From: Clostridiaceae bacterium HSG29
GTDB taxonomy: Bacteria > Bacillota > Clostridia > Peptostreptococcales > Acidaminobacteraceae
NCBI GenBank assembly: GCA_030377915.1
Contig: JAUCFZ010000004.1
Coordinates: 1 to 49,341 of the forward strand
DNA: 49,341 nucleotides
Reading direction: 5' to 3'
Both the position numbers and the translations under genes were made by a program. The notes beneath the pieces were generated by a model. It ran no database searches. It was not told where the DNA came from and saw nothing but the letters and a program-made list of their open reading frames with translations. Of the stretch, positions 3,860-47,404 are shown piece after piece; positions within the stretch are counted from its first letter, which is position 1, and each line of letters begins with the position of its first letter.

Positions 3860-5101
3860 TTAATATATTTTAAGAAATTCGAATCTTGATGTTACTTTGG
3901 TTGCAAAATCTTCCATATTTCTAAATCCTAGTTGTTGAATTTTTGCTTCTCGTAAAGCAGGTGCTAGATTTCTATTCGAAATTGCTTTAAGTCCATCTTC
4001 CATAGCTTTGGACATTTTTGGAACTACTTTACCCATATCTCTATAACCATTTTCAAGTTTCCCTAATAAATCTCCAGCTTTATTAAGTTGCTCTAATGCC
4101 TCTGATTGAGAATGAACATTGCCAAGACTCCATGGCTCTGCAAATTTATGATTTTCTGCCATACTTAGTTGTGTTGGATCAAGTAATTCTCCAATACCAG
4201 CTTCTACTTGCTCTTTAGGAGACAATATTTTATCAATTCCATCTACTCTAGCAGTTGGTGCTTCACCAGCTAACTGAGCTGTTCGTTCAGTACTAAATTC
4301 ACGAATTGCTTCTTGATGTGAAACACTTGTTGGCATTTCACCTTGTCTTTGACCCCACTGTCTTATCTGCTCATCTGGTGTCATTTTATCCCAATTCGCA
4401 TCTGGATATAAATCTTTTGCCTTATCAGTTGTAAAACCACTTTTATCTGCATATTTTTGATAATAAAGATCTTCAAAATCTTTATGAGGAATTTCTTCCC
4501 ATTGTCCAGTAGCTTCATTAAATTTCTGAACAGTGAAATCATTATCAGCATTAATACTATCAGGAATTCGACAGTTATCAGGACTTTTATCATTTGGGTA
4601 ATAAATATTATCTGCCTGTTTTAAATCATCAACTTTTCCTTTACCTGGTGTTCTTATTTCTTTTATTCTTAATTCAGAATCTTTATACTTAGCATTTTTA
4701 CTTAAATCATCAATCATATCGTCATATGAACCTCTTTGTACATCTTTCAATGTTTTATTATATTCTTTTACAAAATCTTTAGGTATATCAGGAGTTTTTC
4801 CTGCATCAGCTATTTTTTCCCCTTGTGCAGCTCTTGTATCAATACTTCCTCTTGAATTAATTACATCATCTTTTTTAATACCCTTCTTAGCATTGACATC
4901 ATCAATCATTTTTTGTGTATTATCTTTCGCATTTCCCAAAGCTTCATCATATTCTCTTTGAGCTTTTACTAATTCATCTTTCTTACCCGGTGGTAAATCA
5001 TCCATATCTTTTATCTCATTTTTAACTCTATTTTCAGCAGTTTCTTGTGAAGCTCGTTGACCTGTTTCTTCAGTAGCTTCTTTTGTACCTCGTTCTCCCA
5101 C
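3860..5101 (-). CDS. C-terminal part of the frameshifted ERGTKE-repeat protein
   Basis: Open frame of 413 residues beginning inside the 36-bp repeats (first codon GTG, with no ribosome binding site, so an independent start is unlikely). It opens with two more repeat units (…GERGTKEATEE…) and continues the preceding 5134-7224 frame if one base is restored at 5143/5144. After the repeats come a charged helical stretch (about 30-75), a soluble region rich in Asp, Lys and Gly (about 90-215) and a C-terminal block (about 225-413) with 'PTSVSHQEAIREFSTER' and 'AENHKFAEPWSLGNVHSQ'. I recognise no named domain. The size, the hydrophilic nature and the place at the end of a membrane-anchored repeat protein recall the variable C-terminal module of polymorphic toxins, but no catalytic motif supports that firmly. 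Confidence 0.6.
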   Translation of the reverse strand: MGERGTKEATEETGQRASQETAENRVKNEIKDMDDLPPGKKDELVKAQREYDEALGNAKDNTQKMIDDVNAKKGIKKDDVINSRGSIDTRAAQGEKIADAGKTPDIPKDFVKEYNKTLKDVQRGSYDDMIDDLSKNAKYKDSELRIKEIRTPGKGKVDDLKQADNIYYPNDKSPDNCRIPDSINADNDFTVQKFNEATGQWEEIPHKDFEDLYYQKYADKSGFTTDKAKDLYPDANWDKMTPDEQIRQWGQRQGEMPTSVSHQEAIREFSTERTAQLAGEAPTARVDGIDKILSPKEQVEAGIGELLDPTQLSMAENHKFAEPWSLGNVHSQSEALEQLNKAGDLLGKLENGYRDMGKVVPKMSKAMEDGLKAISNRNLAPALREAKIQQLGFRNMEDFATKVTSRFEFLKIY

Positions 5102-5494
5102 TTCTTCAGTAGCTTCTTTTGTACCTCGTTCTCCTACTTCCTCACTGCTTCTTTTGTACCTCTTTCTCCTACTTCTTCAGTGACTTCTTTCGTTCCACGT
5201 TCTCCCACTTCTTCAGTGACTTCTTTTGTACCTCTTTCTCCTACTTCTTCTGTAACTTCTTTTGTTCCTCTTTCTCCTACTTCCTCTACTACCTCTTTTG
5301 TACCTCGTTCTCCTACTTCCTCTACTGCTTCTTTTGTACCTCTTTCTCCTACTTCCTCTACTGCTTCTTTTGTTCCTCTTTCAGCTACTTCCTCTACTGC
5401 TTCTTTTGTTCCTCTTTCAGCTACTTCCTCTACTACTTCTTTTGTTCCTCTTTCAACAACTTCCTCTACCACTTCTTTTGTTCCGCGTTCAGCT
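5064..5494 (-). repeat. Twelve tandem 36-bp coding repeats (12-residue ERGTKE units)
   Basis: Contiguous units with boundaries at 5064, 5100, 5136, 5171, 5207, 5243, 5279, 5315, 5351, 5387, 5423 and 5459. Each encodes a variant of (A/G/V)ERGTKE(A/V)(V/T)EEV, expected to form a long charged alpha-helix or coiled coil. Every unit is 36 bases except 5136-5170, which is 35: a T present in sister units (acttcctcTactgct) is missing after position 5143. That single-base deficit shifts the frame and creates the TAG at 5134-5136. Units at one end share GTACCTCGTTCTCC spelling and those at the other share GTTCCTCTTTCAGC, which suggests local duplication. Confidence 0.93.
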
Positions 5495-7224
5495 ATTTCT
5501 TCAACACCTTCTTTGATTACTGTTTTAACACCTAATTTTACACCTTGCTCAGCAACTTCTGTTGCAATATTAACAAGTCCAAATCCAACTAAAATTTCTG
5601 CTACATCCATTGTAGCAAATGGAACATTAAGCATTCTTTCTCCAAGACCTTTATTAGGATCAATAATATTTTTTATACTATCTGCTGGTGAAAGAGCTTT
5701 AATAATTTCATATGCAGCTCTTGGATCATTTTTGATTTTATTTAAAAAATTCTCCACTGCTACTGATGCTTTACCGGTTAATGTTCCGCCTTTTTCAATA
5801 ATTTCTATAGCATTATTAACATATGCTTCAGGATCGTTATAAAATTCTTGTAATTCATCTTTAATCCACTCTGCAGCATATTCGCCAGATACCAATCCAT
5901 TTATATCCTTAATCATTCCCTCAGCTGTATCTAAAACTACTTCTGTTGTAACATTTTCATCTATCCACTCAGAAACTTCTTCTTTTATTTGGAAACCTTT
6001 ATCAAAAAAATCAGTCATTTCTTTGTCTATATTTTCTTTAGTTTGTTTGATTAAATGACAACCAGTAAATAAATCTACTGTTAAATCTTTAATCCCTACA
6101 ACAGTTTCAATACCAACATAAGCAACATCTTCCCCTAAAGCTGCACCCATTCCAGATCCATAATTCCAGTTGCCTTTTACATCCAAATTTCCTCCTAAAG
6201 CACCTATTGTAACTCCTAATAAACCACCCGCAACAGAGAAAAGACCTGATACAGCACTAGTAATAAATACACCAACAGAACCTGCAGATCCAACATAAGT
6301 AGATACAGATTTTCCGCCTTCACTCCATCCGCCATTATCAGCAAAAACTATCCCTGTTAATCTTTGTGCCATTAATGCAAAAACAATAAAAAACATTGCA
6401 CTTTTAACTGCTTTCTTAGAAATTTTATTGTAAGTTAAAAGTACTGTTAATGCAATAAACACAATCATCAAAATAATTGAAATTAAACGTGCTCTATTTA
6501 TAGGTATCAAAGCTAATATTATCATTCCTAATAACATCGAAAAAGTCATAATACCTACATACTCTTTATTTAAAGGTTGAATTCCTTTTTTCCGTTTAAA
6601 TAATCTATGAAAATCATTCCAAAAAGCTAATGAAACTGCAAAAACTAATGATTTTTCTTTTGATGCATATTCAAAGAAAATAGTTATTGCTAATGTTATA
6701 AATAATATATTATTTTTTGCAAATATACCTAAAATCATTACTAATCCCATTGAAAAAAACATCAACGGTCCAATAACATTTTTTGAACCTAAAATACAAT
6801 TTTTAGTCCAAGGTATTGTACCAAAAACTTCTTTAAAAAATTTCTTTATTCCACCATTTCTAATTCTAGAATAAATCAAAGTAAGCGCATAAGTTAAAAC
6901 AAAACTCATAACATTAAATGCCACTTCATTTCCACCTGTATTAATTACATCGCTCCAGAATTTCCCGGAATTCAATTTAATTAATCCTATCCCTTCATTC
7001 TTCACTGCAATTGAATAAACACTAAAACTTGTAACAACAAAAAATGAAATAATACTTCTTATTAAAATAGATTTCCACATCTTTGGGATACTTTGTATTA
7101 TACCTTTTATTATACTAATAATTAAACCAAATACAGATAAAGGTTTATTAGCTTTTTTTTCTTTTTTTAACTTTTTCTTTTCTTCTTTTAACTTTTTCTT
7201 TTCTTCTTTATGTCTCTTGCTCAT
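5134..7224 (-). CDS. Multi-pass membrane protein with ERGTKE repeats (N-terminal part; frame broken in the repeats)
   Basis: 696 residues from ATG 7222-7224, chosen because GGGAGGGG lies directly upstream (a GTG 24 bases earlier lacks one). Layout: a very basic N-terminal coiled region (KEEKKKLKEEKKKLKKEKK, about 4-28); about eight hydrophobic segments between residues 35 and 295; a Gly/Ala/Ser-rich region (about 300-370) around 'NGGWSEGGKS'; an acidic helical region (about 380-540); a hydrophobic 'FATMDVAEILVGFGLVNIA' stretch; then the ERGTKE repeats. It ends at a TAG created by a one-base deficit inside the repeats; otherwise the frame would continue through 3860-5101 as a protein of about 1,115 residues. 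It follows the propeller gene by 28 bases in the same operon. Family not recognised; a scaffold or secreted-effector-like protein is only an inference. Confidence 0.75.
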   Translation of the reverse strand: MSKRHKEEKKKLKEEKKKLKKEKKANKPLSVFGLIISIIKGIIQSIPKMWKSILIRSIISFFVVTSFSVYSIAVKNEGIGLIKLNSGKFWSDVINTGGNEVAFNVMSFVLTYALTLIYSRIRNGGIKKFFKEVFGTIPWTKNCILGSKNVIGPLMFFSMGLVMILGIFAKNNILFITLAITIFFEYASKEKSLVFAVSLAFWNDFHRLFKRKKGIQPLNKEYVGIMTFSMLLGMIILALIPINRARLISIILMIVFIALTVLLTYNKISKKAVKSAMFFIVFALMAQRLTGIVFADNGGWSEGGKSVSTYVGSAGSVGVFITSAVSGLFSVAGGLLGVTIGALGGNLDVKGNWNYGSGMGAALGEDVAYVGIETVVGIKDLTVDLFTGCHLIKQTKENIDKEMTDFFDKGFQIKEEVSEWIDENVTTEVVLDTAEGMIKDINGLVSGEYAAEWIKDELQEFYNDPEAYVNNAIEIIEKGGTLTGKASVAVENFLNKIKNDPRAAYEIIKALSPADSIKNIIDPNKGLGERMLNVPFATMDVAEILVGFGLVNIATEVAEQGVKLGVKTVIKEGVEEIAERGTKEVVEEVVERGTKEVVEEVAERGTKEAVEEVAERGTKEAVEEVGERGTKEAVEEVGERGTKEVVEEVGERGTKEVTEEVGERGTKEVTEEVGERGTKEVTEEVGERGTKEAVRK

Positions 7225-7252
7225 GCCATCCCCTCCCATTATATACACTAGA

Positions 7253-37612: not shown

Positions 37613-38287
37613 ATGATAATTAATGTTGAAAATAAAGAATACGATAGAATTCCAATTAAAACACATTTAATTGATAAAACAGATGAAATTTTAGATGTTG
37701 TTGAAAAATATGCTGTAAATGAAATACAAGAAGGCGATATATTATTTATTAGTGAAAAAGCTGTTGCTGTAACTCAAAGCAGATCTTTTTTTGTAACTGA
37801 AATTAAACCTTCAAAAATGGCAACTTTTATTTCTAGTTTTGTTACTAGATCTCCATATGGAATTGGGCTTGGTATGCCTGAAACTATGGAAATGGCTATT
37901 AGAGAGTGTGGACTTCCTAAAATTTTACTAGCAAGTGTTGTTGGAGGTTTTACAAAGAAAGTATTAGGTAGAAGTGGTGACTTCTATAGAATTGCAGGAC
38001 CAAAAGCAAGAGCTATTGATGGCCCAACTAGTGGTACAATTCCACCACTAAATAAATGTGTAGTATTAGGACCAGAAGATCCAGATAAAGTTGCTAAATC
38101 AATTGAAGATAAATTTAATCTTCAATGTTTAATAATCGATGCTAATGATTTAGGTCAAGATATTCTTGGTTTTTCAAATAAATCTTTAAAAGATAATGTT
38201 CACTTTTATGAAAAACTTATTTCTGATAATCCACTTGGCCAAGGGCATCAACAAACTCCTATGGGTTTGATTAGAAAAATAAACTAA
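37613..38287 (+). CDS. CofE-like F420-0:gamma-glutamyl ligase family protein
   Basis: 224 residues. The family (CofE/FbiB N-terminal domain) adds glutamate to coenzyme F420-0 in archaea and actinomycetes; many Bacillota carry homologues without making F420. Visible conserved stretches: 'DRIPIKTHLID' at the start, 'EGDILFISEKAVAVTQSRSF' (about 38-57), 'ASVVGGFTKKVLGRSGDFYR' (about 112-131), 'KARAIDGPTSGTIPPLNKCV' and 'IIDANDLGQDILGFSNKS'. No other F420 genes are in the window, so a different amide-forming reaction is likely. Start ATG behind AAGGAG, its own transcript on the plus strand. Confidence 0.85.
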   Translation: MIINVENKEYDRIPIKTHLIDKTDEILDVVEKYAVNEIQEGDILFISEKAVAVTQSRSFFVTEIKPSKMATFISSFVTRSPYGIGLGMPETMEMAIRECGLPKILLASVVGGFTKKVLGRSGDFYRIAGPKARAIDGPTSGTIPPLNKCVVLGPEDPDKVAKSIEDKFNLQCLIIDANDLGQDILGFSNKSLKDNVHFYEKLISDNPLGQGHQQTPMGLIRKIN

Positions 38288-38358: not shown

Positions 38359-38445
38359 GCCGAAGTGGCGGAACTGGCAGACGCGTCGGACTCAAAATCC
38401 GAAGCCCTTAAAAGCGTGTGGGTTCGAGTCCCACCTTCGGCACCA
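38359..38445 (+). tRNA. tRNA-Leu (anticodon CAA)
   Basis: 87 bases including an encoded CCA. The acceptor stem pairs GCCGAAG (38359-38365) with CTTCGGC (38435-38441), with discriminator A and CCA at 38442-38445. The anticodon loop CTCAAAA lies between TCGGA and TCCGA, with CAA at 38393-38395, so it reads UUG. The long variable arm (class II, around 38403-38418) and GGTTCGAGTCC T-loop are typical of tRNA-Leu. Confidence 0.97.
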
Positions 38446-38676: not shown

Positions 38677-41292
38677 TTATTTCTTTTCACTCATGGCTTT
38701 ATTGATTCTATTATATAGCATTTTAAAGAATACTTTTGTGTTAACAAAATTATTCATAGAACCTGATGTTTTTCCAGCCATATCAGCATAATTTACACTA
38801 AGTACTCGACAAGATACATTATCAATAGCCTCTACTTTTATTGCAAATGTGTTTAATGCTCTTTCATTACCATTTAATGGATATTCCTCTTTACTGTATT
38901 TACTACCACCAGGCGATTCCTTATGTAGTATGGATTTTGAAGCAAAAACTTTCTTGAAAGGATCAATTGCATTAAGTACAACAAAATCACACTCTGGCAT
39001 AAACGGTAACTTTGTTGTTGCAATTGCAGCTTCTAATCTACACCCTTCATGCCAATCATATATTTCAAGCGGAGATTTTTCATGATCTTCAGGACGACTT
39101 ACAGGATCAATAACTGCATACCCTTCTGGTGATACCAATAAATCGAATGTTAATTGTGCTGATGCATTAATGATACCACTTGCTCGTGTAATCAATACAC
39201 CAGAAGAAGCTAGTGGACCCGAAATTGGTTTGGATTCAACCAAAAGACCTCTCTTATTAATCTCCTCTTTCCATCCTGTTGTTGATACTAGTCTATTTAC
39301 TTCATCAAACATTTTATCTGCAAATTCAGGTGCATCAACTAAATAATCCTCACCAATTAAAAATTCATTGCCAAACTGTTTTTTTATTCGTCCTTTTGAT
39401 AAGTTATGTATTTCATTTTCTATTTCACTATTATTATCAAAATAAGGCCAGATTATTTCCTCGAATCCACTCAGAACTGATACATCCCATTTTTCTAATT
39501 CTTTTTTTGGATAATCTTCTCTTAAAGGAACTTTATAAGTTACTTTATTTTTATCTAATCTCTGTTCATCATCTTTTGGAATAAAGATTGTATGGAATAG
39601 AGTTGAGTTATTTAAATTCTCATGACCTAACTTACAAATAGGACCTTTAGACAATTCATCTGATTTAAATATCCAATATTCATGCCCACTTGATTTCCTG
39701 TGATCAGTATCTCTTACAACTCCCGCAATAACATAACCTTGACCAGAAGTTTCTATACAAGATATTGTGTATAGTAAGACTTTATCTGGCATAATATAAC
39801 TATCAGAAATTTTAAAATCATCAGTTGAAATGCGACATATAGAGTTATTGTGACTTATTCCTTCGCCATCAACCATATCCTCTATATTAACATGTCTTTT
39901 ATCTACATTTTTATATGCTTCATAAATTCGCTTTGGCAGAACATCTTTTGAAAAACCTTTAAACATAATAAATAAATCTTGTTTATTAAATGGTTTTAGT
40001 TGTCTACCCATATAGGTATATAAATATGGTCCCCAACAATATGGCATTTCTGCAATATAATTGGATTCTTTTACTTTTAATAATTTCATATCAATACTAT
40101 GTTTACCTATACTACTCAAATCAAGAACAGGTAATGTACCATAGCCTATCATGTGCTTACTAAAAAGTTGACCATTTAAATCTCTATCATAATCCTTTAA
40201 AATTTCAGCAGTATTAGTTGCAGGTGTATGAAGCATATAAACTGAAATTACATCATCAGGATTATCATACTTTGCAATCAAATGAATACATGGCTCATCA
40301 ACTTCTATGCGCTTTGCACTCACTCTTTTATTATTATCTTTTAATTCTCTTCTATCGATAATATAAACAACTGTTTTATCATTTGGTAGCGGTGCATTTT
40401 TCCAAGGCGTTAACATTTCAGTCCCTGCAATAAAAGCTGTATCAGCTAATAGTATATAATCTCTTGTAAAAATCAATTCATGGATACTTTGTTTGATTTC
40501 AATATCTTTGCCCTGTTCATCAACAACATTCCAATGTTCAAAATCACCATATCCATCCCATTTAATCAATCTAACAGGATGGCTTCCATCTGCTTGCTTA
40601 TATTGATAATTGACTAAAAATACTTCGCCTTGCTCATGATCGGTATACAATACATGAGAATTACTATATCCAGCAAATAAGTTTCCCATTATTTCACCAG
40701 CTTTATCAGCCATCATAGGCAACCATTCATTCCTTTTACCTATAGGTGTAACAACACGAAGAGTATCTCTTTCAATAATCCATGGTCTGTCCACATCACT
40801 TGTCACTGCAAGTCTACCATCCGGAAGCAAATACATTCCTTCGGTATATGAAAACATACCTAGGCCAGGTGATAAGAACATTAAACCAAAGTAATCAAAA
40901 CGATGTCTTGTATTGTCCAATATCATTTTTGCAAGTGCCACAGGAGTCCACATCAAGCGATTTGTTAAATGAGCTTTTTTTTGATCAAATTTTATTTTAA
41001 CAACATTAGTATCTCCAACCATAAATGCACTTGGTGTACCAAGGCATTGACATAAATATAAGTTCCCATCAATATCATCTGGATACTTACCTTCAATTAA
41101 TTTTAAATCATAATCTGAATCAATTGTAGATGTATTACAAACTGTATAAGCATCTGGTAAAACCTTTGATGTATCAGGCCTTCTACTAAAAATTGACTGA
41201 GTATTTTTAATAAATTTATGGCTTTTTCTACCCAATGACATAAAATACCTGAAATTTGGGTATATATCTTTATATACATTACTTTTAATCAT
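38677..41292 (-). CDS. Carotenoid oxygenase (RPE65-family) fused to a C-terminal START-like domain
   Basis: 871 residues. Residues about 45-590 match the carotenoid cleavage oxygenase propeller, with all four candidate iron-binding histidines in order: H213 ('SNSHVLYTDHEQGE'), H271 ('SIHELIFTRDYILLADT'), H337 ('CIHLIAKYDNPDD') and H567 ('NSTLFHTIFIPKDD'), the last after 'GQGYVIAGVVRDTDHR', the counterpart of the family's 'DDGYLL' strand. Residues about 655-868 resemble a START/SRPBCC lipid-binding domain ('LLVSPEGYAVIDPVSRPEDH', 'NYADMAGKTSGSMNNFVNTK'). The ATG 41290-41292 is preferred (GGAGGTG 6 bases upstream) and overlaps the EFR1 gene by 8 bases. Such enzymes use O2 or, in some members, isomerise; a role in an anaerobe is unclear. 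Confidence 0.82.
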   Translation of the reverse strand: MIKSNVYKDIYPNFRYFMSLGRKSHKFIKNTQSIFSRRPDTSKVLPDAYTVCNTSTIDSDYDLKLIEGKYPDDIDGNLYLCQCLGTPSAFMVGDTNVVKIKFDQKKAHLTNRLMWTPVALAKMILDNTRHRFDYFGLMFLSPGLGMFSYTEGMYLLPDGRLAVTSDVDRPWIIERDTLRVVTPIGKRNEWLPMMADKAGEIMGNLFAGYSNSHVLYTDHEQGEVFLVNYQYKQADGSHPVRLIKWDGYGDFEHWNVVDEQGKDIEIKQSIHELIFTRDYILLADTAFIAGTEMLTPWKNAPLPNDKTVVYIIDRRELKDNNKRVSAKRIEVDEPCIHLIAKYDNPDDVISVYMLHTPATNTAEILKDYDRDLNGQLFSKHMIGYGTLPVLDLSSIGKHSIDMKLLKVKESNYIAEMPYCWGPYLYTYMGRQLKPFNKQDLFIMFKGFSKDVLPKRIYEAYKNVDKRHVNIEDMVDGEGISHNNSICRISTDDFKISDSYIMPDKVLLYTISCIETSGQGYVIAGVVRDTDHRKSSGHEYWIFKSDELSKGPICKLGHENLNNSTLFHTIFIPKDDEQRLDKNKVTYKVPLREDYPKKELEKWDVSVLSGFEEIIWPYFDNNSEIENEIHNLSKGRIKKQFGNEFLIGEDYLVDAPEFADKMFDEVNRLVSTTGWKEEINKRGLLVESKPISGPLASSGVLITRASGIINASAQLTFDLLVSPEGYAVIDPVSRPEDHEKSPLEIYDWHEGCRLEAAIATTKLPFMPECDFVVLNAIDPFKKVFASKSILHKESPGGSKYSKEEYPLNGNERALNTFAIKVEAIDNVSCRVLSVNYADMAGKTSGSMNNFVNTKVFFKMLYNRINKAMSEKK

Positions 41293-42061
41293 TTTCTGCA
41301 CCTCCAGAAATATATCTTTCAATTGAATATCCATTTTTAATAGGAATGAATTTTGAAATTCTAGGTATTATTGATTTGGTTGGACAATTATATATACATC
41401 TCATACACATCATACATTTGAAACCAAATTTAATCTTACCATTATCTTTCATATGAATATTACTTTCTGGGCATTCTCTAACACATAAACCACACTTTAT
41501 ACAACTCTTTTTAGCATACAGCTCTAAACCAAAAAATCTCGCAGCAAAAGGTTCTATTCTACCAACCCGATTAACAAGAAGCGATTTAAAAGGTAGTTTT
41601 TTCTTTGATACAATGGAATTTTTTATATCAATAGATATTTTATTAATTCGTTTTCTAGCATCCATGAGCAGATTACTAATCATTTCTTCAGGAAAACTCA
41701 TAATAAGAGTTAATGGCATAGCAATTATTTCATCTACAACTATCTGATAGGCTTTTTTTTCTAGTATTTTTCTAATTTCATTTGATGCTGCACAATTAAG
41801 CCATTTATCATTACAACCAACAGCTATTAAACTAATTTTAGTAAATCTATCCGAAGGTAAACCTTTAACGAATCTCTTAACAGTTTTAGGGGCATTAAAT
41901 GCATGTATAGCAAATAAAATAATTAAATGTTCTGATTCTTTAAGTTTGCTTGGTATGGTATGCTCTAAAGCATTTACTCGATCTACATCTAAATATTCAC
42001 TGAGCATACCTGCTAGATAAGCAGTATTTCCTGTAGGACTAAATTGAACGATTGTATACAT
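41285..42061 (-). CDS. EFR1-family ferredoxin with flavodoxin-like N-terminal domain
   Basis: 258 residues. The N-terminal half is flavodoxin-like, with the phosphate-loop 'FSPTGNTAYLAGMLSEYL' (about 6-23) and 'HLIILFAIHAFNAPKTVKRF'. The C-terminal part has two [4Fe-4S] motifs, 'CIKCGLCVRECP' and 'CMMCMRCIYNCP' (about 188-225), so it can carry low-potential electrons. ATG 42059-42061 has AAAGGAG 6 bases upstream (the longer GTG start is inside that site). It is translationally coupled to the carotenoid-oxygenase-like gene and both sit behind a MerR-type promoter, so it may supply electrons for that pathway (inference). Confidence 0.9.
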   Translation of the reverse strand: MYTIVQFSPTGNTAYLAGMLSEYLDVDRVNALEHTIPSKLKESEHLIILFAIHAFNAPKTVKRFVKGLPSDRFTKISLIAVGCNDKWLNCAASNEIRKILEKKAYQIVVDEIIAMPLTLIMSFPEEMISNLLMDARKRINKISIDIKNSIVSKKKLPFKSLLVNRVGRIEPFAARFFGLELYAKKSCIKCGLCVRECPESNIHMKDNGKIKFGFKCMMCMRCIYNCPTKSIIPRISKFIPIKNGYSIERYISGGAEND

Positions 42062-42129: not shown

Positions 42130-42158
42130 TAATTATACTTTATTACGTTACGTCACAA
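42130..42158 (-). promoter_or_regulatory. Promoter and MerR-type operator of the EFR1/carotenoid-oxygenase operon
   Basis: Minus strand: TATAAT (42137-42132) preceded by the near-dyad TGACGTAACGTAA (42155-42143). A TTGCTT at 42162-42157 would give the 19-base spacer typical of MerR-activated promoters. The same 29-base block recurs in front of the merR gene (42996-43024) with about 6 differences, mostly outside the GTAAC core and -10 box. Confidence 0.7.
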
Positions 42159-42182
42159 GCAAGTGTTTTCTGAAAAAAATAT

Positions 42183-42219: not shown

Positions 42220-42978
42220 TTAAATTTTTTTGCTAATATAATATTCTACGGATTTCTCTAAGAAAGTATTTATTTCCTTTTGCATTTCTGAATATTGTTT
42301 AGGCCAATGTTCAGAACTTTTATAAAAGCTATACAGTTTTCTTTCCATTTCAGGTTCACCATTTGAATACTTTTCAACCATTGTCCACATCTCTAATGCA
42401 AGAGCCTGTGCTTCTTCACTATCAGGTGCAAACCCTAAACTTATTAAACTTCTAGCACTCTTCATGCATTTTACTAACCAATCTGAAGGCAATTCTGCTT
42501 CACTATATTGTTCATGAACATGTGTAATATTTTCCAATATATCATCTTCTAAATAATTCATAACCCAAAAGCTTTCATTATTATCTTGTATGAGTTTCAT
42601 CATATTTGAGTATTTTGACCAATCTACTATATTTTTTTCATTAATTTCATTAGTTATCATTTCAATAGAATCTAATATTTTATTTGCTTTTGAAATCTGA
42701 TCTTTTATCAAATAAGTTTGTTTCACGAGCATCTTATTGATATCCTCATTAGAATTAATAGGCATTATGCGTTTTTTAATTTCATCTAAAGTCAAACCTA
42801 GAGATTTAAAAGTTATTATTTGATGCAATATTGTTATATCATTAGTGCTGTATAATCGCCTTCCACCTTTACTGATTCTTGAGGGTTTTAGAAGATCTAT
42901 TTTATCGTAATATTGTAACGTTCTTACCGTTACATTCGCCTGTTTTGCAAGTTCTCCCACTGTAATTTTTTCAGTCAC
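42220..42978 (-). CDS. MerR family regulator with TipA-S-like C-terminal domain
   Basis: 252 residues. The N-terminal MerR winged helix (1-75) has 'ITVGELAKQANVTVRTLQYY', 'DKIDLLKPSRISKGGRRLYS' and 'LHQIITFKSLGLTLDEIKKR', then a coiled-coil (about 80-115), then a helical C-terminal domain (about 125-250) resembling the TipA-S drug-binding fold ('SDWLVKCMKSARSLISLGFA', 'ALALEMWTMVEKYSNGEPEM'). Starts at GTG 42976-42978 with GGAGGTG 7 bases upstream. Its own promoter and that of the next operon share an imperfect palindrome (TTAYGTAACRTAA), which argues for autoregulation plus activation of the downstream EFR1/carotenoid-oxygenase genes. The signal is probably a hydrophobic ligand, but this is inference. 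Confidence 0.9.
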   Translation of the reverse strand: MTEKITVGELAKQANVTVRTLQYYDKIDLLKPSRISKGGRRLYSTNDITILHQIITFKSLGLTLDEIKKRIMPINSNEDINKMLVKQTYLIKDQISKANKILDSIEMITNEINEKNIVDWSKYSNMMKLIQDNNESFWVMNYLEDDILENITHVHEQYSEAELPSDWLVKCMKSARSLISLGFAPDSEEAQALALEMWTMVEKYSNGEPEMERKLYSFYKSSEHWPKQYSEMQKEINTFLEKSVEYYISKKI

Positions 42979-42995
42979 TATACACCTCCATACGC

Positions 42996-43024
42996 TAATT
43001 ATACCTCATTATGTTACATAACAA
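42996..43024 (-). promoter_or_regulatory. merR promoter with palindromic operator
   Basis: Minus strand: TATAAT (43003-42998) preceded by TTATGTAACATAA (43021-43009), a palindrome with 6-bp arms around a single central base, in the place expected for a MerR-family operator. It matches the dyad at 42143-42155. Confidence 0.7.
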
Positions 43025-43315: not shown

Positions 43316-43951
43316 ATGAAAAAACAATCACGTTATCAAGAAATTGCTATCGATTTAGCTACACTAATTATAAATGGACATTATGAAGAAGGAGATAAAA
43401 TTCCTGGTAGTTCTTCTCTTGCAACAAAGTATCAAGTTTCTTCTGAAACCATCAGAAAAGCATTTCTAATATTAAAAGAATATGGAGTCGTAACTTCAAC
43501 TCAGAAAAATGGTATAGAAATTGTTAATACTAAAAATGCAATTTTATTTTTGGATAAAAATCAAGAGCAAACAACTTTTACTTCAATAAGAAATCAAATT
43601 GATAACGCCATAGAATCACGAATGAAATTAAATAAGGAAATCTCTCAACTTACTTTTGAACTTGTTAATCAAATTAGTTCTCAACGAGATATTGGTATAA
43701 TTCATCCTATGGAAATAATGATAAAAGATTCAAGTCCACTAATAGGTAAAACTCTAAACGAATGTGAATTTTGGAATTTCACTAAATCTACTATCATTGC
43801 ATTAAAGAAAGAACAAATTCAGTGTATTTCACCTTCTCCAAATACAATTCTTAAATCGGGAGATACTCTTGTATTTGTCGGGAAAAGCAATACATATAGC
43901 AAAATGATTAAATATGTGAACACTGGAAAAGGTAAAAAAACTGATATGTAG
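43316..43951 (+). CDS. busR: BusR-like regulator: GntR winged helix + RCK_C (TrkA-C) domain
   Basis: 211 residues. GntR-type winged helix (about 6-70, 'YQEIAIDLATLIINGHYEEG' and 'SSLATKYQVSSETIRKAFLI'), a coiled-coil linker (about 82-115) and a C-terminal RCK_C domain (about 122-205, 'IMIKDSSPLIGKTLNECEFW' and 'PNTILKSGDTLVFVGKSNTY'). This is the layout of BusR, which binds c-di-AMP and represses osmolyte importers in lactic acid bacteria and streptococci. An OpuC-type osmoprotectant importer lies next to it, convergently transcribed, which supports the assignment. Start ATG behind GGAGG. A direct test of c-di-AMP binding cannot be made from sequence. Confidence 0.85.
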   Translation: MKKQSRYQEIAIDLATLIINGHYEEGDKIPGSSSLATKYQVSSETIRKAFLILKEYGVVTSTQKNGIEIVNTKNAILFLDKNQEQTTFTSIRNQIDNAIESRMKLNKEISQLTFELVNQISSQRDIGIIHPMEIMIKDSSPLIGKTLNECEFWNFTKSTIIALKKEQIQCISPSPNTILKSGDTLVFVGKSNTYSKMIKYVNTGKGKKTDM

Positions 43952-44073: not shown

Positions 44074-44979
44074 TTAATCTATTAATCCATTAGCTCTTAG
44101 AAACTCTTCAGCAGCTTCTTCAGGCTCAAGACCATCTACATCAACTCGTCTGTTAAGTTCTTGTAATACTTCACCTGTAAGTAATGCAGGTAATTTATTA
44201 AGATCTGATTCTAAATCAGGGTATTGTTCTAATATTTCACTTCTTACTATTGGTGCAGGGTTATAAACTGGGAAAAATTTCAAATTATCTTCTAATACAT
44301 TAAAATTCATTGATATAATACGTCCATCAGTTCCAAATCCCATTGCAACATCAACTTGTCCATTTTTTAACGCTTCATATGTTATCCCTATTGCCATTGA
44401 ACTAAGTAAATCTCTATCAAATTTAAAATCATATAATGTTTCTAAACCTTTTATACCATCTGGTCTTTCAACAAATTCAATACCTGCTCCTAAACGTATT
44501 TCATTTCCTGCTTTTATATAGTCAGCTAATTCTGAAACTGTTGCTAAATTTTTTTCTTTTGCAAAATCTTCTCTAACCATTAATATATATGTGTTATTTG
44601 CATTAGCTGGATCTAACCAAGTAATATTATTTGTTTCAGCATCCCATTTTTTTACCATTTCATAACATTCTTTTGAATCAGTAACTACATCTGATTTCAT
44701 ATTTACCATTAACGTTGTGCCTGTATATTCCCAATATAAATCAATTTCACCAGATTGTATAGCTGGTCTTAGCATTGGTGTTTCCCCTAATCCAGTTCTA
44801 TCTTCTACCTCATATCCTTTTGCTTCTAAATATTGCAATGTCATAGAACCAAGTGTTAATTGTTCAGTCCACGCTTTTGAAGATACTTTAATTGCAGGCA
44901 ATTCACTATCTTTAGCACTGCAACCGATTGAAAATAACGCTATAACAACAACTAGTATTATAATTATATTTTTTTTCAT
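44074..44979 (-). CDS. Osmoprotectant/glycine betaine ABC transporter, binding lipoprotein (OpuCC/OsmX-like)
   Basis: 301 residues with a lipoprotein signal (lipobox 'FSIGC', Cys at about 20). The mature protein has the family signatures 'VSSKAWTEQLTLGSMTLQYL', 'SGEIDLYWEYTGTTLMVNMK', 'MAIGITYEALKNGQVDVAMG' and 'LLTGEVLQELNRRVDVDGLE'. It presents quaternary-ammonium osmolytes such as glycine betaine, choline or carnitine to the permeases; which one is not predictable. Last gene of the ATPase-permease-permease-SBP operon, ended by the hairpin at 43981. Start ATG behind AGGAGG. Confidence 0.92.
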   Translation of the reverse strand: MKKNIIIILVVVIALFSIGCSAKDSELPAIKVSSKAWTEQLTLGSMTLQYLEAKGYEVEDRTGLGETPMLRPAIQSGEIDLYWEYTGTTLMVNMKSDVVTDSKECYEMVKKWDAETNNITWLDPANANNTYILMVREDFAKEKNLATVSELADYIKAGNEIRLGAGIEFVERPDGIKGLETLYDFKFDRDLLSSMAIGITYEALKNGQVDVAMGFGTDGRIISMNFNVLEDNLKFFPVYNPAPIVRSEILEQYPDLESDLNKLPALLTGEVLQELNRRVDVDGLEPEEAAEEFLRANGLID

Positions 44980-44987
44980 AATTCCTC

Positions 44988-45617
44988 CTATTTATACTTT
45001 TTTTCTATTCTCTTATTAATAGATCCTAAACCTCTATCAAAAACTATTGCCATTAATGCAGATAAAATAGCACCAATAATAGTCAATTCAGGCCTAAACT
45101 GCGATATACCAGTAAAGATTAACTTACCTAAACCACCAGCACCTATTAATTGTGCTATTGCAGCTGTACCTACAATTAACACCGCCGATGTTTGGATTCC
45201 TGCAATTATAACAGGAAAAGCTAAAGGTAGCTCAACATCAATCAAAACCTTATTTTTTGACAAACCAATTCCTTTTGCTGATTCTAATATATCAGGATCA
45301 ATATTGCTTATACCCGCTATAGTATTCTGAGCTATAGGAAGCAATCCGTATAAGCATAATGCTACAATACTAGGAAAATAACCAATACCAAGGAATTTCA
45401 AAAAAATTGCAATTACTGCTAAACTTGGCACACCTTGAGCAGTATTTAATATGGCAATTATTTTATTAGAATATGGTTTAAGTTTTTCTCGTGTTAATAA
45501 TACTCCTAACGGTACTGCTAAGAATATAGCACTAGTTAATGCAATTGTTACAATTATTAGATGTTGTAGTACTAATTCTGGAGCATCATATAACAATATG
45601 TTTATTATCTCATTCAT
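44988..45617 (-). CDS. Osmoprotectant ABC transporter permease (OpuCB/OpuCD-like)
   Basis: 209 residues with about five membrane segments. The EAA loop, which contacts the ATPase, is 'ILESAKGIGLSKNKVLIDVE' (about 128-147), followed by 'LPLAFPVIIAGIQTSAVLIV' and 'GAGGLGKLIFTGISQF', characteristic of OpuC-type permeases. It lies 8 bases before the binding protein and 12 bases after the other permease. Start ATG with AAAGGAGG. Together the two permeases form the heterodimeric channel. Confidence 0.92.
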   Translation of the reverse strand: MNEIINILLYDAPELVLQHLIIVTIALTSAIFLAVPLGVLLTREKLKPYSNKIIAILNTAQGVPSLAVIAIFLKFLGIGYFPSIVALCLYGLLPIAQNTIAGISNIDPDILESAKGIGLSKNKVLIDVELPLAFPVIIAGIQTSAVLIVGTAAIAQLIGAGGLGKLIFTGISQFRPELTIIGAILSALMAIVFDRGLGSINKRIEKKYK

Positions 45618-45629
45618 TTTGCCTCCTTT

Positions 45630-46277
45630 CTAAGAATCAAGATGTAATCCAGGTGATATTAACTTTTTCTGAATCAACGCCATTACTCCATCAACAACAA
45701 TTGCAAGTATAGCTACTAAAAGTCCACCTGTAAGCACCATATCCATATGCGTCCTTGTAATTCCTTGCTGTATTAATCTACCTAAGTTTCTTTCGCCAAT
45801 ATACACTGCTAATGTTGCTATACCAACCATCATCACAAGAGCAACTCTTACACCTGCAAAAATTATAGGAAATGCTAAAGGCAATTGAATTTTCCATAAT
45901 ATTTGATTTTTCTTCATTCCCATCCCTCTAGCAGCCTCAATGATGCTTTCATCAACTTCATTTAACGCCAAATATACATTTCTCATTATAGGTAACATTG
46001 CATATAATACTAGAGCAAACACTGCACTTAACCTTGATAATCCAAATCCAGGTATAGTAACTAAAATACCATAAATTGAAATACTAGGAATTGACATAAT
46101 AATACTAGCAACTCCAAGTAATCCATTTGCGAGTTTATTATGATTTCTTATTAAAATTCCAATACTTATCCAAATTATTAACGCAAAACACATTGCTAAA
46201 CTAATTAATTCAATATGCTCCATAGTAAGGTCAGTAATTTTATCAATATTTTTTATAAAATATTTTAATGTTGACAT
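45630..46277 (-). CDS. Osmoprotectant ABC transporter permease (second subunit)
   Basis: 215 residues, six probable membrane segments. EAA loop 'IIEAARGMGMKKNQILWKIQ' (about 113-132) and 'LPLAFPIIFAGVRVALVMMV', then 'LATLAVYIGERNLGRLIQQG', are the features of OpuC-type permeases. It pairs with the 44988-45617 permease. It lies 8 bases after the ATPase gene. Start ATG behind TAGGAGG. Confidence 0.92.
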   Translation of the reverse strand: MSTLKYFIKNIDKITDLTMEHIELISLAMCFALIIWISIGILIRNHNKLANGLLGVASIIMSIPSISIYGILVTIPGFGLSRLSAVFALVLYAMLPIMRNVYLALNEVDESIIEAARGMGMKKNQILWKIQLPLAFPIIFAGVRVALVMMVGIATLAVYIGERNLGRLIQQGITRTHMDMVLTGGLLVAILAIVVDGVMALIQKKLISPGLHLDS

Positions 46278-46285
46278 AATACCTC

Positions 46286-47404
46286 CTACTCAATTGTTGT
46301 TTCATATTCTCTTCCAACATGTGATTTTATCATATCAAAATTAACTACACCTATATATTTTTTCTCATCATCTAAAACAGGAATAGTTTTCATATCATTT
46401 TCTAACATAGCTACCATAGCGTCTTTTAAAGTAGAATCTATTCCCAAACAAATATCATATGTTCTTATATAATCGCACCATTTTTCAACATTTTTCTTTT
46501 CTACTATACGATTAATATCTATATATCCTTGTAACTTATTGTCATCATTTAATACAATAGCAAAATTTGAGTTATTATAAAACTCATTAATTTGTGATGA
46601 ATCTGATCCATACCTAATAGTTGGCATATATGCTTCCATTATACTACTTACTCTAAGCAAATTAAGTACTTTCAACGCTCTATCTGATCCTACAAACTCT
46701 TCAACAAATTCATTAATTGGAGAAAAAAGTATGTTTTCAGGGGTATCATATTGAACAAGCTTTCCATTATTCATAATTGCAATTTTATCCCCCATTTTTA
46801 TAGCTTCATCAATATCATGGGTAACAAAACAAATGGTCATCTTTACTTTTTTTTGAAGAGCTAAAAATTCATTTTGTAATTGATTTCTAGTAATAGGATC
46901 TACAGCGCCAAAAGGTTCATCCATTAGCATTACTGATGGATTTGCTGCCATTGCCCTTGCCACTCCAACTCTTTGTTTCTGACCACCGGACAATTGATTA
47001 GGATATTTATACATATTTTCATCAGGATCCAAATCAACTACGTCTAATAGTTCTCTTACTCTACTCATGACTTTATCTTCTTTCCAACCTTTCAATTTAG
47101 GAACAACTGCTATATTTTCAAAAACTGTATAATGCGGGAAAAGTCCAACTTTTTGAATTACATAACCAATACCAAGTCGTAATTCATCAGCATCAAATTC
47201 CAAAATATTCTTGCCATCAATAGATATTATGCCATTTGTAGGCTCAATTATTCTATTAATCATTTTCATTGTTGTTGTTTTACCACAACCAGAAGGTCCA
47301 ACAAATACACAAATTTCTCCTTCTTTAATTTCTAGGTCCAACTTTGAAACAGCAGGCCTATCCATTCCTTTATAATACTTACTCACACCTTCTATTTTAA
47401 TCAT
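46286..47404 (-). CDS. Osmoprotectant ABC transporter ATPase with tandem CBS domains (OpuCA-like)
   Basis: 372 residues. ATPase domain (1-240) with Walker A 'GPSGCGKTTTMKMIN' (about 38-52), Q-loop 'VIQKVGLFPHYTVFENI', signature 'LSGGQKQRVGVARAMA', Walker B 'VMLMDEPFGAVDP' and H-loop 'CFVTHDIDEAIKM'. Two CBS domains follow (about 258-370, 'MPTIRYGSDSSQINEFYNNS' and 'ATLEND'-like region 'MVAMLENDMKTIPVLDDEKK'), which in OpuCA/OpuA proteins sense ionic strength or c-di-AMP. It is the first gene of the operon; the ATG follows AGGAGG. The CBS domains and the BusR-like gene nearby suggest dual control by c-di-AMP (inference). Confidence 0.94.
   Translation of the reverse strand: MIKIEGVSKYYKGMDRPAVSKLDLEIKEGEICVFVGPSGCGKTTTMKMINRIIEPTNGIISIDGKNILEFDADELRLGIGYVIQKVGLFPHYTVFENIAVVPKLKGWKEDKVMSRVRELLDVVDLDPDENMYKYPNQLSGGQKQRVGVARAMAANPSVMLMDEPFGAVDPITRNQLQNEFLALQKKVKMTICFVTHDIDEAIKMGDKIAIMNNGKLVQYDTPENILFSPINEFVEEFVGSDRALKVLNLLRVSSIMEAYMPTIRYGSDSSQINEFYNNSNFAIVLNDDNKLQGYIDINRIVEKKNVEKWCDYIRTYDICLGIDSTLKDAMVAMLENDMKTIPVLDDEKKYIGVVNFDMIKSHVGREYETTIE

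Follow-up and report, generated by a model that had tools for sequence, protein, structure and literature searches.

A cassette of three consecutive genes was identified on the minus strand of contig JAUCFZ010000004.1 of Clostridiaceae bacterium HSG29 (assembly GCA_030377915.1), within a stretch of 49,341 nucleotides hereafter referred to as the window. The genes encode, in this order, a MerR-family regulator with a TipAS ligand-binding domain, a flavodoxin-like ferredoxin of the EFR1 family and an 871-residue protein in which a propeller of the RPE65/carotenoid cleavage oxygenase (CCO) type is followed by a C-terminal domain that is probably START-like (Table 1). The cassette is real, rare and conserved across two genomes. 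The CCO superfamily is known; the fusion with a START-like domain was not found described, and at the level of titles and abstracts in the open-access literature neither such a fusion nor a CCO in anaerobic Clostridia was encountered.

Table 1. Features of the cassette, in the numbering of the window
Feature	Position	Strand	Basis
RPE65/carotenoid-oxygenase-like protein with C-terminal START-like domain, 871 aa	38677..41292	-	PF03055; 67% identical over the full length to the Vallitaleaceae copy
Propeller part (approximate; residues 60-600) carrying the putative iron ligands H213, H271, H337, H567	39493..41115	-	Alignments, profile search
Approximate, probable START-like C-terminal domain, residues 650-871	38680..39345	-	Foldseek ranking of low-confidence model
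EFR1 family flavodoxin-like/2[4Fe-4S] protein, 258 aa	41285..42061	-	NF038196; two cysteine motifs
MerR-family regulator with TipAS ligand-binding domain	42220..42978	-	MerR_1, TipAS; 57% identical to the Vallitaleaceae copy
Putative MerR-type promoter of efr1-rpe65: TTGCTT, 19-bp spacer with palindrome TGACGTAACGTAA, TATAAT	42132..42162	-	Sequence reading
Second operator copy and -10 box, 5' of the merR gene	42998..43021	-	Exact pattern match

The efr1 and fusion genes overlap by 8 bases (ATGATTAA), as had been pointed out in a first-pass annotation made from the letters of the window. The listed open reading frame of the fusion (38677-41334, minus strand) begins at an upstream ATG and has 885 residues; the start of the 871-residue form at 41292 is favoured, because GGAGG lies immediately 5' of it and the alignment of the Vallitaleaceae relative starts at residue 14 of the 885-residue frame.

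The recurrence of the cassette was examined with exact peptide patterns in a collection of genomes from 84,980 species, which yielded 23 stretches. Only one of these, located on a 4.1-kb contig of a Vallitaleaceae metagenome-assembled genome (MAG; Bacillota, Clostridia), encodes a relative. This contig (C214) begins within the EFR1 gene and continues into the fusion; a further contig (C125) terminates in the MerR-TipAS gene and the 5' part of efr1. The ends of the two contigs overlap by exactly 55 bases, as is expected of neighbours in an assembly graph, which places the regulator, the ferredoxin and the fusion in identical order in both genomes. Identities between the two copies are 57% for merR, 56% and 74% for the N-terminal and C-terminal parts of efr1 and 67% for the fusion; the copies have thus diverged, yet are intact, and the genes flanking them differ between the two genomes. 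No third fusion was retrieved by the pattern scan, which copies far less identical than these two may escape. Protein searches gave matches in one of 198 genomes of the order, one of 41 of the family and one of 196 of the order of genome G569, and phylum-wide in three of 398; in every case the genome already known was the sole full match, and the other two phylum-wide matches are short pieces, one of which lies, as judged by eye, within a glycosyltransferase-like frame. PF03055 matched two of 391 genomes of the class, the second below the cut-off and within a frame that seems to encode an unrelated membrane protein, and three scans of viral contigs gave no match.

The assignment of the fusion to the carotenoid oxygenase family, first made by inspection, is borne out by the Pfam search (PF03055, E 4.1e-13, 49.7 bits against a cut-off of 27), and the Vallitaleaceae copy likewise exceeds the cut-off (46.4 bits). 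The four residues proposed at the same time as iron ligands are indeed histidines: H213, H271, H337 and H567 are invariant in all six of the window protein, its Vallitaleaceae relative and four plasmid-borne proteins (H1-H4), and by two alignment methods in all nine family members compared. The nine-sequence alignment comprises the window protein, the Clostridia MAG relative, the four plasmid-borne proteins (three from cyanobacteria, one from Bernardetia) and three canonical enzymes of about 470 residues from the same phylum, which are 14-16% identical to the window fusion. Ten columns are invariant in the first alignment and nine by the second method, applied to trimmed sequences, with all four histidines among them in both. 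From this strict conservation the four-histidine centre is predicted to bind Fe(II). A profile of the six sequences matched CCO structures in the PDB, namely lignostilbene dioxygenases and an apocarotenoid oxygenase (ACO), with a best value of 1.8e-15, and its fourth histidine aligns to the LHG/LHGSW histidine of the 9lp3, 5v2d and 2biw chains; no RPE65 chain was among the 21 PDB profile matches at E <= 1. Membership of the lignostilbene dioxygenase family NOV2 (NF053780) was not indicated, the window fusion scoring 11.1 bits and the Vallitaleaceae copy 18.4 against a cut-off of 650. In a Foldseek search with an AlphaFold2 model of the whole protein (two-sequence alignment, pLDDT 31.5), CCO chains took ranks 1-3, 5 and 6, the top three being lignostilbene dioxygenase 5v2d (best E 0.011), and no match reached E <= 0.001.

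The C-terminal portion of about 220 residues occurs in both fusions, which are 64% identical over a 255-column alignment of this part. It is lacking in all four plasmid-borne relatives, in agreement with the earlier impression of an unusual architecture, and a search of the plasmid collection gave no match to it. A structure prediction of this domain, which the first-pass annotation had proposed as a check, gave a two-sequence AlphaFold model with pLDDT 32.8. The models are poor probably because relatives are few (two sequences each), and only their Foldseek rankings, not their geometry, were used. Against 350,542 PDB chains, START/StAR proteins filled the first six ranks and 11 of the top 13 rows (best E 0.034), by which the domain is considered probably START-like. 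The whole-protein model, passed through the same pipeline, recovered the family known from sequence and thus serves as an internal positive control for such rankings. Re-examination of the C-terminal model with VIA placed a pilin in the best row (Z 4.4), with START rows at 4.3 or below and the silkworm carotenoid-binding protein among the rows present. Across the genomes of 99 relatives PF01852 gave five weak pieces at E <= 0.1, none over the cut-off and none corresponding to this gene; none of 14 control genomes gave any.

The identity of the partner as a two-[4Fe-4S] flavodoxin-like EFR1 protein is likewise upheld (NF038196, 8.2e-37, 127.5 bits with the cut-off at 75, residues 4-231): the N-terminus is flavodoxin-like with an SPTGNT loop, two CX2CX2CX3C motifs are present, and the gene adjoins the fusion in both fusion genomes. 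A further EFR1 neighbourhood was observed in genome G797, where a canonical 467-residue carotenoid oxygenase gene and an EFR1 gene (259 bits) are divergent and about 0.7 kb apart (locus L033, 4216-7730), with a ferritin/EncB-like gene, scoring below the NCBIfam cut-off, on the other side. The EFR1 cut-off is passed at 0 to 3 places per genome in three other genomes, from which chance proximity at the G797 locus is estimated at a few per cent; the neighbourhood is regarded as a lead toward a real partnership. No EFR1 cysteine-motif gene was found in the roughly 11 kb examined at the CCO loci of G717 and G759, and three other EFR1 loci (L009, L010, L012) have no CCO nearby as judged by eye.

The earlier inspection overlooked the third gene of the cassette, a regulator of the TipA class (MerR_1 2.6e-19, 69.5 bits; TipAS 2.2e-07, 31.8 bits against a cut-off of 23.8), together with its operators. 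A palindrome (TKAYGTWRCRTAA) at a constant distance from a TATAAT-like box precedes both efr1 and merR in the window; the relative has two copies of this element at its merR gene. The operator pattern, derived from those same four sites, has two exact matches in the window (one at 42132-42155) against 0.09 expected at <= 2 mismatches, and two in the locus of the relative against 0.00 expected at <= 1 mismatch. The same promoter arrangement stands at 604-627 of the relative's locus L015, with identical spacing between operator and -10 box in both genomes. As read from the sequence, TTGCTT before efr1 in the window and TTGCAT in the relative lie 19 bases from the -10 box, and MerR promoters are described as having spacers of 19-20 bp (PMC9909328); the -35 box is weak at the merR operator copy of the window, and the second operator copy of the relative overlaps the first listed merR start codon, the frame of which may begin downstream. 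The regulator presumably activates its own gene and efr1-rpe65 upon binding a ligand. TipA proteins are described as autoregulators that sense drugs (PMC7762955), and a regulator of this class with such operators suggests detection of an external, perhaps toxic ligand and not a housekeeping role in retinoid chemistry.

The host genome is a draft of 2.09 Mb in 266 contigs, estimated to be 86% complete. No haem-copper oxidase was detected in it by a search for COX1, cytochrome bd not having been searched for, and no COX1 match was found in the Vallitaleaceae genome; the window carries genes for ferredoxin-type 2-oxoacid oxidoreductases. Both bacteria thus appear, from their gene content, to be anaerobic, and the anaerobic setting supposed at the outset holds as far as it was tested. 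No match to the phytoene synthase family was found in the 86%-complete host genome either, which, along with the lack of a haem-copper oxidase match, makes an external substrate probable. Within the phylum PF03055 exceeds its cut-off in four of 398 genomes, namely this one and those of the three canonical enzymes, of which G717 and G797 have no COX1 match and G759 has one. The idea that the fusion represents the only CCO in an oxidase-lacking genome of the phylum was rejected, since G717 and G797 carry canonical four-histidine enzymes.

The cassette is tentatively interpreted, with somewhat less than even confidence, as a ligand-induced system for capturing a hydrophobic compound and converting it at a four-histidine iron centre, probably without a need for O2 and with EFR1 as redox partner. 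On the basis of the regulator, the operators and the gene order observed, the TipA-class protein would turn on its own gene and efr1-rpe65, through the promoter with the 19-bp spacer, once it binds a compound from outside the cell that is amphipathic or hydrophobic. The C-terminal domain, probably START-like by the model ranking, may then act as a lipid carrier that draws either the sensed compound or a different hydrophobic molecule out of the membrane and passes it to the propeller. There, Fe(II) held by the four conserved histidines would transform a conjugated or ester-activated substrate, the metal most likely acting as a Lewis acid by analogy with RPE65, in which case O2 would not strictly be needed. 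In RPE65 the iron is described as a Lewis acid, in contrast to the oxygenases (PMC11142922). EFR1, encoded beside the fusion in both genomes, could supply electrons that maintain the iron in its ferrous state or reduce the substrate or product. In this way the cell would detoxify or process a compound that it does not make itself, be it a polyene, a terpenoid or a stilbene-like or retinoid-like molecule. A polyene is attractive as substrate since a carotenoid-binding START domain is known: that of StARD3 binds lutein and was identified by its resemblance to the carotenoid-binding protein of the silkworm (PMC4973302). The profile matches make stilbene-type substrates appear equally likely.

A more specific proposal, which is considered rather unlikely, is that the fusion represents an O2-independent, ferredoxin-linked branch of the four-histidine enzymes in anaerobes, in which a START-loaded enzyme induced by its compound transforms a polyene or terpenoid reductively or hydrolytically. 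It would, to our knowledge, be the first member of the superfamily to use low-potential electrons.

Several results weigh against the favoured interpretation. The solved structures nearest by profile are lignostilbene dioxygenases and an apocarotenoid oxygenase, and of the three canonical CCO loci of the phylum just one has an EFR1-type gene nearby, as recognised by the cysteine motif. Two of the second-shell glutamates are replaced in the fusion, Asp166 standing at the position of ACO E150 and Thr509 at that of ACO Glu426; the position of ACO E370 is insecurely aligned and may correspond to Glu415. With regard to the START-like domain, already proposed at first pass, neither PF01852 nor any other Pfam family matched the C-terminal domain of either fusion up to E = 10, NCBIfam gave none, no Foldseek match of the C-terminal model reached E <= 0.001, so that the identity rests on the ranking of a low-confidence model, and no START chain was among the 50 Foldseek rows listed for the whole-protein model. 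A two-sequence hhalign comparison with START gave E 0.19, equalled by 12 of 100 column shuffles. With five START chains the alignment was colinear over 152 columns (E 0.086), a value equalled by 3 of 100 shuffles and not significant, and with a purpose-built START HMM the fusion scored within the range of shuffled sequences, a leave-one-out control recovering all five START chains. The domain is accordingly retained as probable only: START proteins rank first structurally, and the sequence profiles do not reach significance.

The three second-shell glutamates, ACO E370 included, are usual in the superfamily and not family-defining. The cyanobacterial and Bernardetia relatives keep Asp at the first position and have Ser or Ala at that of Thr509; the position equivalent to Glu426 is Glu in all three canonical enzymes, the canonical enzyme of G759 also lacks Glu at the first, and an E150D mutant of ACO is present in the PDB. 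The second-shell changes were at one stage considered as a mark of anaerobic chemistry, which was dropped because relatives from hosts living with O2 share or resemble them.

Among the alternatives, the fusion could be an ordinary O2-dependent dioxygenase that cleaves alkenes (stilbene, isoeugenol-like or carotenoid) at traces of O2, with EFR1 re-reducing air-oxidised iron and the START-like domain merely aiding a greasy substrate. This is considered somewhat unlikely. In its favour, lignostilbene dioxygenases 9lp3 and 5v2d and an apocarotenoid oxygenase head the PDB profile matches, 5v2d fills the first three Foldseek ranks of the full model, and the nearest relatives outside the fusion genomes, found in the plasmid collection, come from cyanobacteria and Bernardetia, which live with O2. 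It accords less well with the lack of a COX1 match in either fusion genome and with the EFR1 gene adjacent in both, low-potential clostridial ferredoxins being damaged by O2.

The retention of all four metal-ligand histidines and the redox protein co-encoded in both genomes also make it improbable that regulator, START-like domain and propeller together merely soak up a toxic hydrophobic compound without catalysis, a function that the TipAS-class regulator and the START-like domain would suit and for which AlbA, described as trapping albicidin (PMC6078987), provides a parallel. That EFR1 itself is the actual enzyme, a reductase of the sensed compound, with the fusion acting downstream or in parallel, for example by isomerising or hydrolysing the product, is held to be quite improbable; its flavodoxin-like loop and two cluster motifs are intact and EFR1 genes occur without a CCO (L009, L010, L012), and no specific point speaks against it, since the gene pairing gives no reaction order. 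An artefact of assembly or binning that left a stray gene in the bin is largely refuted and hardly credible, for although the genome is a draft in 266 contigs and the third-position GC of the cassette is a little high, the cassette is flanked on both sides by ordinary chromosomal genes within its 49-kb contig and recurs in a second, independent MAG.

The significance of the cassette lies in its bearing on a superfamily whose known members mostly use O2 for cleavage, RPE65 being the exception that works without it. It offers a concrete gene set for testing reductive or O2-free chemistry at a four-histidine centre, and bears on the manner in which anaerobes handle carotenoid-, retinoid- and stilbene-like compounds of their environment.

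With regard to genomic context, a tRNA-Leu(CAA) gene (window 38359-38445) lies directly downstream of the cassette, and the third-position GC is 0.15-0.22 in the cassette genes against 0.11-0.12 in genes read as mutS, mutL and pgi; the cassette is possibly an inserted block. A protein resembling F420 gamma-glutamyl ligase (PF01996, 43.5 bits) is encoded at 37613-38287, the genome itself looking clostridial, and a fusion of a GntR helix-turn-helix with TrkA-C (43316-43951) adjoins glycine-betaine-type ABC transporter genes (44074-47404). Elsewhere in the window, a 36-bp tandem repeat of 13.4 copies (5033-5514), encoding 12-residue units of the GERGTKE type, spans the junction of two large minus-strand frames (5134-7248 and 3860-5101), neither with a Pfam match, which are perhaps a single protein broken by a frameshift.

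In comparison with known systems, RPE65, which presumably has neither a START-like domain nor an EFR1 partner, shares the Pfam family of the fusion. It is described as acting without O2 and provides the precedent for this in the superfamily (PMC11142922). The lignostilbene dioxygenases and apocarotenoid oxygenase (9lp3, 5v2d, 2biw) belong to the same superfamily by profile, with the fourth histidine aligned; the fusion differs from them in its extra C-terminal domain and in the replacement of the ACO glutamates 150 and 426. The nearest proteins outside the fusion genomes, the plasmid-borne CCO-like proteins of Kovacikia, Fischerella and Bernardetia (H1-H3), are 25-28% identical to the fusion and share Asp166 and a residue other than Glu at the Thr509 position; unlike it, they have 674-735 residues and no START-like domain, and the annotations of the genes around H2 and H3 name no EFR1, the H1 record being unannotated. 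StARD3 and the silkworm carotenoid-binding START proteins, which we take to carry no attached enzyme, represent the other half of the architecture, StARD3 (1em2, 5i9j) being among the top Foldseek neighbours of the C-terminal model, a likeness suggested by the model and unconfirmed by sequence. We know of no described case in which a TipA-class regulator is linked to an EFR1-RPE65 pair. The regulator of the window nevertheless has the MerR_1 and TipAS domains of the TipA, SkgA and AlbA regulators, and its own gene is preceded by a copy of the operator.

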